Below, piece by piece: positions 63,388-64,000 of a stretch of DNA of 64,000 nt; within the stretch, counting starts at the first letter, position 1; each line of letters opens with the position of its first letter. The DNA is from Halobacillus litoralis (GTDB taxonomy: Bacteria > Bacillota > Bacilli > Bacillales > Halobacillaceae): positions 1,257,001 to 1,321,000 of the forward strand of contig NZ_CP026118.1 in assembly GCF_004101865.1 (NCBI RefSeq), written 5' to 3'. The notes beneath the pieces were generated by a model that saw only the letters and a program-made list of their open reading frames with translations, was not told the DNA's origin and did not search any database. The translations under genes and the position numbers were made by a program.

Positions 63388-63416
63388 TTGACATACAAGA
63401 ATATTTAAATTATACT
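63388..63416 (+). promoter_or_regulatory. Strong promoter of the leader/ncRNA
   Basis: TTGACA (63388-63393), exactly 17 bases, TATACT (63411-63416). Confidence 0.8.
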
Positions 63417-63421
63417 ATTAG

Positions 63422-63715
63422 ATAGTGCCTTCAGAAGAAGGTAACTCGGAAAAGAAAAGAGTGATTTGTATGAGACTGGCATTCTGCTACGTTTTGATAC
63501 AACTTAATCACACTGGATCAGCTTCGGAGCTGTAAGGATGCGATAGAGGTAGGGATTGCGTCGTTTAAGTTGACAAAAACTACCATGTAGAATTAATGAA
63601 CCGCGGCACATGGATTTTTAATTCAAATGAACTTGTAGATAACAAGAAAAAAATAACTTGATATTTTCCGAAACATATACAAAAGCGAGTGAGACGACGG
63701 TCTGACTCGCTTTTT
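63422..63715 (+). ncRNA. Structured untranslated transcript or leader, class unknown
   Basis: A near-consensus promoter initiates near 63422 and a T-tailed hairpin ends at 63715. The 5' end folds CCTTC-AGAA-GAAGG (63428-63441) flanked by AGT/ACT. A hairpin CAGCT-TCGG-AGCTG follows (63519-63532), then GATGCG..TGCGTC (63538-63562). CCATGT (63583-63588), GAATTAA (63590-63596), ACATGG (63608-63613) and TTAATTC (63618-63624) are interleaved complementary words, so either a pseudoknot or two alternative helices. A 21-aa ORF (63470-63535, MRLAFCYVLIQLN...) with weak SD may be a leader peptide. It may be cis-acting on the next gene or a free small RNA. No match to a known riboswitch or T-box. Confidence 0.6.
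63681..63715 (+). terminator. Terminator of the leader/ncRNA
   Basis: AAAGCGAGT - G - AGAC - GACG - GTCT - G - ACTCGCTTT, one G-G mismatch, followed by TTTTT. Confidence 0.85.
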
Positions 63716-63788
63716 CCAATTCTTATAGGTTTAAGACGCTTGCTTTCATGGTAATATAACCTTTAGAAGCTATGAAGGAGGTCATTTC

Positions 63789-64000
63789 ATGTCACAATAC
63801 ATAGGACGTATTGACCCGGAGGATGTCCGCTTTCTCATGGATCTCTCTGAGTTCAAGGAGTTTGTCACTGATATGCTCGGAGGAGCTCGGGGCCTTGTAA
63901 ATGTAGAGATTGATTACGAGATCATAGAAGAACAAGCTGGAGATACTCTCATACGGCCAATGGTCCTACTCAATGAGATTAGCCGTTTTACTGAAGAAGA
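63789..64000 (+). CDS. Partial gene of unknown function (C-terminus outside window)
   Basis: ATG with AAGGAGG seven bases before; 70 codons visible. The visible part (MSQYIGRIDPEDVRFLMDL, then VTDMLGGARGLVNVEIDYEI) is mixed acidic; no domain is recognised. The upstream structured transcript may be its leader. Confidence 0.6.
   Translation, partial: MSQYIGRIDPEDVRFLMDLSEFKEFVTDMLGGARGLVNVEIDYEIIEEQAGDTLIRPMVLLNEISRFTEE

Follow-up and report, generated by a model that had tools for sequence, protein, structure and literature searches.

A Predicted Transcription Unit and Its Features

The window, by which we mean the whole 64,000-nucleotide stretch of Halobacillus litoralis DNA that was analysed, carries close to its end a small predicted transcription unit, with a gene for a zinc-type dehydrogenase and one lacking a Pfam family as its neighbours. 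The features of this unit, numbered from the first letter of the window, are as follows.

63388-63416, plus strand: promoter TTGACA-17-TATACT, matching the consensus at 11 of 12 positions
63424-63715, plus strand: predicted RNA of about 290 nt, LONG form, from the fold and from a measured homologous Paenibacillus transcript
63426-63443, plus strand: 5' hairpin, from the predicted fold of the window's RNA
63476-63480, plus strand: LONG motif inside CUGGCA, consensus UGGCR, present together with the 3' motif in 42 of 53 first-survey loci
63481-63593, plus strand: helix P0, pairing 63481-63487 with 63587-63593, its arms outperforming 300 permutations in two tests
63488-63574, minus strand: match (64.4 bits, cut-off 38) to Rfam BsrC (RF01410), a model of the core's complement
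63500-63572, plus strand: core three-way junction closed by P1 (63500-63507/63565-63572), from covariation in 38 distinct cores
63519-63532, plus strand: P2 hairpin (63519-63523/63528-63532), from the core alignments
63537-63562, plus strand: P3 hairpin (63537-63544/63555-63562), with 97.4% of cells paired in 38 cores
63545-63554, plus strand: P3 loop AGAGGUAGGG, exposed, purine-rich, and conserved, with variants in distant families
63600-63607, plus strand: LONG motif ACCGCGGC, consensus AYCGCGGY, present as YCGCGGC in 45 of 53 first-survey loci
63681-63715, plus strand: intrinsic terminator of 14 pairs with TTTTT at its end, from the predicted fold and a strand comparison over 104 loci

The initial annotation, made from the letters of the DNA, had described a structured transcript with a near-ideal promoter, a 5' hairpin, and a strong terminator. 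The promoter is indeed present, and both hairpins appear in the predicted fold of 63424-63717. On the strand chosen by that annotation, a structured transcript that has a promoter and a terminator of its own is supported. The start of the RNA at 63424 is an assumed one, placed 8 nt 3' of the -10 hexamer. Taken alone, the promoter match is weak evidence, since shuffles of the same 2 kb yield a mean of 4.4 promoter-like sites that match at least 9 of 12 positions. A consensus scan for terminators listed none, presumably because the stem of the predicted terminator has a mismatch. Compared with shuffled sequences, the folding energy of 63424-63717 corresponds to z -5.6 on the plus strand and z -3.1 on the minus strand.

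A Conserved Core, Probably on the Strand Opposite to the Rfam BsrC Model

The center of this RNA is a three-way junction. In an alignment of 38 distinct cores as plus-strand RNA, changes on both sides were present in 18 of the 22 core pairs, and all five measures of core covariation lay above all 500 shuffles (0/500) as well as above six slid controls. The initial annotation had regarded an absence of covariation, or a lack of conservation even in sister species, as grounds for discarding the element; both were tested and neither was found, as the core pairs covary and the Rfam BsrC model is above its cut-off in 51 of 61 relatives (the window's genome included) and in 24 of 30 genera. The same annotation held that no known RNA class fits, a statement that stands for the plus strand only and fails overall, since RF01410 matches the minus strand. 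The window's RNA is thus homologous to BsrC, but it is no member of RF01410 as Rfam orients this family.

The strand on which RF01410 describes BsrC appears to be the wrong one. Where the true strand forms a G-U pair, the opposite strand has A-C. Read as plus-strand RNA, the 38 cores contain 77 G-U vs 21 A-C cells, and of the latter, 12 fall on a single apical pair and 7 on the outermost two pairs of P1; in a set of 130 cores, which includes two false ones (L012 and L022), the corresponding numbers are 313 vs 99, with 68 of the 99 A-C cells at one apical pair. Promoters and terminators were compared between the strands at 104 distinct loci: the best promoter was superior on the plus strand in 76 and on the minus strand in 15, and the best terminator in 63 and 11, respectively.

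A published transcript also bears on the strand. RNA-seq of Paenibacillus riograndensis SBR5 yielded a “BsrC sRNA” of 322 nt at 688067-687745 on the minus strand, and the same paper places the SRP RNA at 130367-130639 on the plus strand and RNase P at 6001625-6002090 on the minus strand (passages of PMC5670726). In our genome G876, SRP lies at 130370-130638 (plus), RNase P at 6001666-6002081 (minus), and the core at 687843-687920 (minus). We equated G876 with P. riograndensis by these three RNA coordinates, because its 7,919,576 bp differ from the published 7,893,056 bp. On this footing, the core falls inside the published “BsrC” transcript on the minus strand, the Rfam BsrC match lies on the plus strand, and the published 5' end is located 6 nt past a TATAAT. 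As given in those passages, the Paenibacillus “BsrC” transcript therefore runs on the strand of the window's RNA, opposite to the Rfam model.

It could be argued that the functional RNA is nevertheless the minus-strand RNA modelled by Rfam, antisense to the unit described here. This strand was curated by Rfam, and it folds better than its own shuffles; the 51 Rfam matches among the relatives, however, do not decide the strand, because homology gives them on either one. Given that the G-U vs A-C counts, the promoters, the terminators, and the strand of the published transcript all oppose it, we consider this reading highly improbable. Transcription of both strands may still occur.

Distribution in Bacilli

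To describe its extent, we used a core model, R1, which was built from the 61-genome set of relatives, a set that partly overlaps the genomes later searched with it. Of the 398 class genomes searched, 213 match R1, weakly so in three cases (G205, G221, and G305), and matches occur in 80 of 146 genera. One Paenibacillus-like genus has the core in 98 of its 100 genomes and a Bacillus-like genus in all 44, and a match was also identified in Vagococcus bubulae. In a phylum-wide sample, 16 of 398 genomes match, including 14 within the class and two weak matches outside it. Some genomes contain two or three R1 matches. A second copy in the window's genome was considered and rejected, as the next-best R1 hit (22.8 bits) lies inside a 448-codon open frame. 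Among phages and plasmids, no blastn match to the RNA was found, and of five pattern hits on viral contigs, one holds a true core (L173:6962-7039), perhaps in the host flank of a provirus.

The small RNA BsrC itself is already known; the LONG form, the class-wide extent, and the corrected strand are new. Neither the opposite strand nor the LONG form was found described in the open-licence literature searched, a set that does not extend to the first BsrC publication (Saito et al., 2009), or in passages of PMC2784878, PMC3574147, PMC5670726, PMC4634765, PMC8208703, PMC11109978, PMC8632094, and PMC6429828. A structured RNA with strong covariation that more than half of the sampled Bacilli genomes contain would count as one of the more widespread orphan RNAs in this class. 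Should the Rfam entry indeed model the wrong strand, annotation and target prediction that rely on Rfam start from the complement.

The LONG Form and Competing Folds

By its sequence motifs, the window's RNA belongs to what we refer to as the LONG form. In the first survey, YCGCGGC was located 38-62 nt past the start of the P3 loop motif in 45 of 53 loci, and 42 of these 45 also carry the upstream UGGCR; across more families the two motifs become UGGCR and AYCGCGGY, with exceptions. Helix P0 accompanies them. Real P0 arm pairs were more stable than re-dealt arms in 300 of 300 permutations, both in a 39-locus test, which omitted L009, L012, L025, L051, L070, and L076, and in a test of 46 distinct LONG loci, from which the window's own row was dropped as a duplicate of another.

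The initial annotation had proposed different pairings in this region, namely two overlapping pairs of complementary words that could form alternative helices. All four words are present (CCATGT at 63583-63588, ACATGG at 63608-63613, GAATTAA at 63590-63596, and TTAATTC at 63618-63624). Their pairing is not conserved: CCATGT and ACATGG occur together in 5 of the 46 LONG loci and GAATTAA and TTAATTC in none, and 201 of 300 permutations were as good as these pairings, whereas the competing P0 beats all 300.

The energy model prefers yet another fold for the window's RNA, with a competing 5' hairpin at 63461-63512 that excludes both P0 and P1. The predicted energies are -84.6 kcal/mol with this hairpin, -80.2 with the core, and -75.1 with the core and P0, so that the competing fold is favoured by 4.4 kcal/mol over the core and by 9.5 over the core with P0. 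Across 16 loci of the window's family the hairpin is weakly supported, with 8 of 400 permutations equally good; across 28 loci outside the family it is unsupported, with 313 of 400 equally good. Either the energy model misses contacts within the junction, or the window's family really switches. We also considered a pseudoknot between CUACC, which is present in 25 of 46 LONG loci, and GGUAG of the P3 loop; by eye, no compensating change accompanies it where the loop has GGCAG, and this candidate was rejected.

A further divergent copy was seen at three loci (L127, L128, and L131), close upstream of a same-strand gene. By eye, it has a P0-like helix and is without CCGCGGC.

A Candidate Pairing with the 16S rRNA 530 Loop

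The motifs that flank P0 in the LONG form might conceivably act as an antisense clamp for the 530 loop in the decoding center of 16S rRNA, an idea that was formed post hoc from sequence complementarity and that we regard as a long shot. The pairing would presumably join UGGCR to U516-A520 and AYCGCGGY to G524-U531 (E. coli numbering). Opposite each R and Y of the motifs stands an invariant U or G, with which either letter can pair. If this were true, the effect of the base pairing would be to silence 30S subunits or to chaperone their assembly.

In the 16S rRNA of this organism, GCCGCGGU is found with UGCCA within 12 nt, as it is in 1 of 1000 dinucleotide shuffles; GCCGCGGU alone is found in 43 of 1000 shuffles and has a second site in the 16S rRNA. 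Among 25 loci read in one Paenibacillus group, 14 (L063, L064, L067, L069, L070, L137, L148-L153, L155, and L157) have a conserved CGGCUGCUGG on the 3' side of the core, complementary to the 530 loop. Of 83 loci that lack the CGCGG motif, 78 also have antisense matches to 16S rRNA of at least 8 nt, and some of these matches are 10-11 nt long and lie elsewhere in the 16S rRNA. The palindromic nature of CCGCGG and the existence of non-LONG forms without the UGGCR and AYCGCGGY motifs were both counted against the pairing. Covariation cannot serve as a test here, because the target is invariant.

Neighbouring Genes and the 21-Codon Reading Frame

Of the 155 loci in the neighbourhood survey, 148 could be located, with L012 and L022 placed on false cores; most surveyed loci are about 3 kb, which sets the reach of the neighbour-gene counts. 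The gene at 63789-64000, which the initial annotation had suggested as the target, encodes a 132-residue product (read on in L053) without a Pfam family. A homolog of this gene adjoins the RNA in 24 of the 148 loci (the window's own included); these all belong to the window's family, and the other 41 families have no such locus.

A role for the RNA as a riboswitch or attenuator in the leader of this gene, switching between alternative pairings, might be suggested by its position 73 bases upstream on the same strand, by the joint occurrence of RNA and gene in 24 of 32 family loci, and by the competing 5' hairpin within the family. The RNA also resembles riboswitch leaders in its architecture, a junction with conserved unpaired loops followed by a terminator; it differs from them in having no conserved downstream gene. 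The terminator stands between the RNA and the 63789 gene, which is absent beside the RNA in the other families, and the word pairings on which the switch was to depend are not conserved. No riboswitch family is among the Rfam matches to the window up to an E-value of 5. Since these pairings are not conserved, and both the reading frame and the gene accompany the RNA only within the family, a riboswitch for 63789 is very improbable.

The 21-codon reading frame is present at 63470-63535. It is open in 26 of 32 family loci, and the first half of its 21 residues is hydrophobic, as might be expected if the transcript were a messenger for a small peptide, such as a type I toxin, with the RNA structure being secondary. 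Outside the family, however, a start codon is at this place in only 4 of 28 LONG loci, the frames are unrelated and 7-19 residues long, and a conserved small hydrophobic toxin frame, as in type I toxin-antitoxin systems, was not found; within the family, the variable residues fall mostly between P0 and P1. A peptide-coding function is, in our judgement, very improbable.

Overall, we think it likely that 63388-63715 is the gene of a free-standing, non-coding plus-strand RNA of about 290 nt, a LONG-form homolog of BsrC that would act in trans.

B. subtilis Copies, Cold-Shock Genes, and a Possible Mode of Action

In genome G953, which we take to be B. subtilis 168, a core lies at 474425-474502 on the plus strand; ydaG precedes it in the same orientation, and the Rfam match is on the minus strand. 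A second copy is located between a CarD-domain gene and a cold-shock protein (csp) gene, and RF01410 is above its cut-off at both core loci. Correspondingly, BSGatlas has an Rfam BsrC hit between cspC and ydeB (passages of PMC8208703).

The window's RNA thus shares with BsrC a homologous core that exceeds the RF01410 cut-off in the window and at both B. subtilis loci. It differs from RF01410, which comprises the complement and only a hairpin, and it differs from the B. subtilis copies in being of the LONG form (P0, UGGCR, and AYCGCGGY), of which none was seen in those copies by eye. Its neighbour genes are different as well, and the placement of BsrC between ydaG and ydaH was not found at the window's locus.

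An Hfq co-purification study in B. subtilis recorded a 53.6-fold enriched peak at 474265-474410 in ydaG-ydaH and lost strand information. On the coordinates of G953, this peak begins 6 nt past a TATTAT on the plus strand and ends 15 nt before the core. In passages of a B. amyloliquefaciens study, BsrC was undetected (PMC4634765).

A csp gene, as identified by a short sequence pattern, lies within 1 kb of the RNA in 22 of 148 loci and 15 of 42 families, both as raw counts. Such genes accompany 21 of 90 non-LONG vs 1 of 58 LONG loci and lie before, behind, or facing the RNA; there is none within 1 kb of the window's RNA. Consistent with this division, 7 of the 8 first-survey loci without YCGCGGC are within about 610 bp of a cold-shock-protein gene.

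These neighbours raise the question of whether the RNA was ancestrally a leader or attenuator of csp genes that still acts in cis where it precedes them. In 9 of the 22 csp-linked loci, a same-strand csp gene begins about 130-330 nt downstream, and three of those nine (L126, L129, and L130) have, by eye, a hairpin-like stretch before csp. In the other 13, by contrast, csp is upstream on the same strand (6), facing the RNA (5), pointing away (1), or further downstream (1), and within 1 kb of the RNA no csp was seen in 126 of 148 loci. We therefore consider such a leader unlikely, and the free-standing, trans-acting RNA remains the reading that we prefer.

Acting in trans, this RNA would be a stable scaffold that may offer its purine-rich loops to a protein or RNA partner, and the LONG form might additionally offer the two motifs flanking P0. 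The partner would probably belong to the RNA-chaperone and cold-shock network, which is the first place to look because copies recur beside csp genes and because of the co-purification with Hfq; we infer this functional step from the gene neighbourhood and the one strand-blind Hfq study. With a class-wide model in the corrected orientation, its forms described and its csp association noted, the function can be tested directly in B. subtilis.

Other candidate partners were rejected. There is no indication of a target that is fully complementary to the P3 loop, as perfect sites were rarer than those of the reversed control in 6 of 6 genomes, and one of the perfect sites in each genome (two in G953) was the RNA gene itself. 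Readings of the purine-rich loops as CsrA sites, Shine-Dalgarno (SD) decoys, or G-quadruplexes were dropped by judgement, because the motifs vary between families.

The cspA thermoregulator (RF01766), an RNA element of cold-shock genes, matches just above its cut-off at the csp locus that adjoins the second copy in B. subtilis. The window differs in having no RF01766 match and no csp gene within 1 kb of its RNA. Inspection by eye of six loci (L126, L129, L130, L007, L015, and L023) indicated a long hairpin-like stretch, rich in A+U and with T runs behind it, before the downstream csp, and it is possible that this stretch between the RNA and csp is a conditional terminator for csp.
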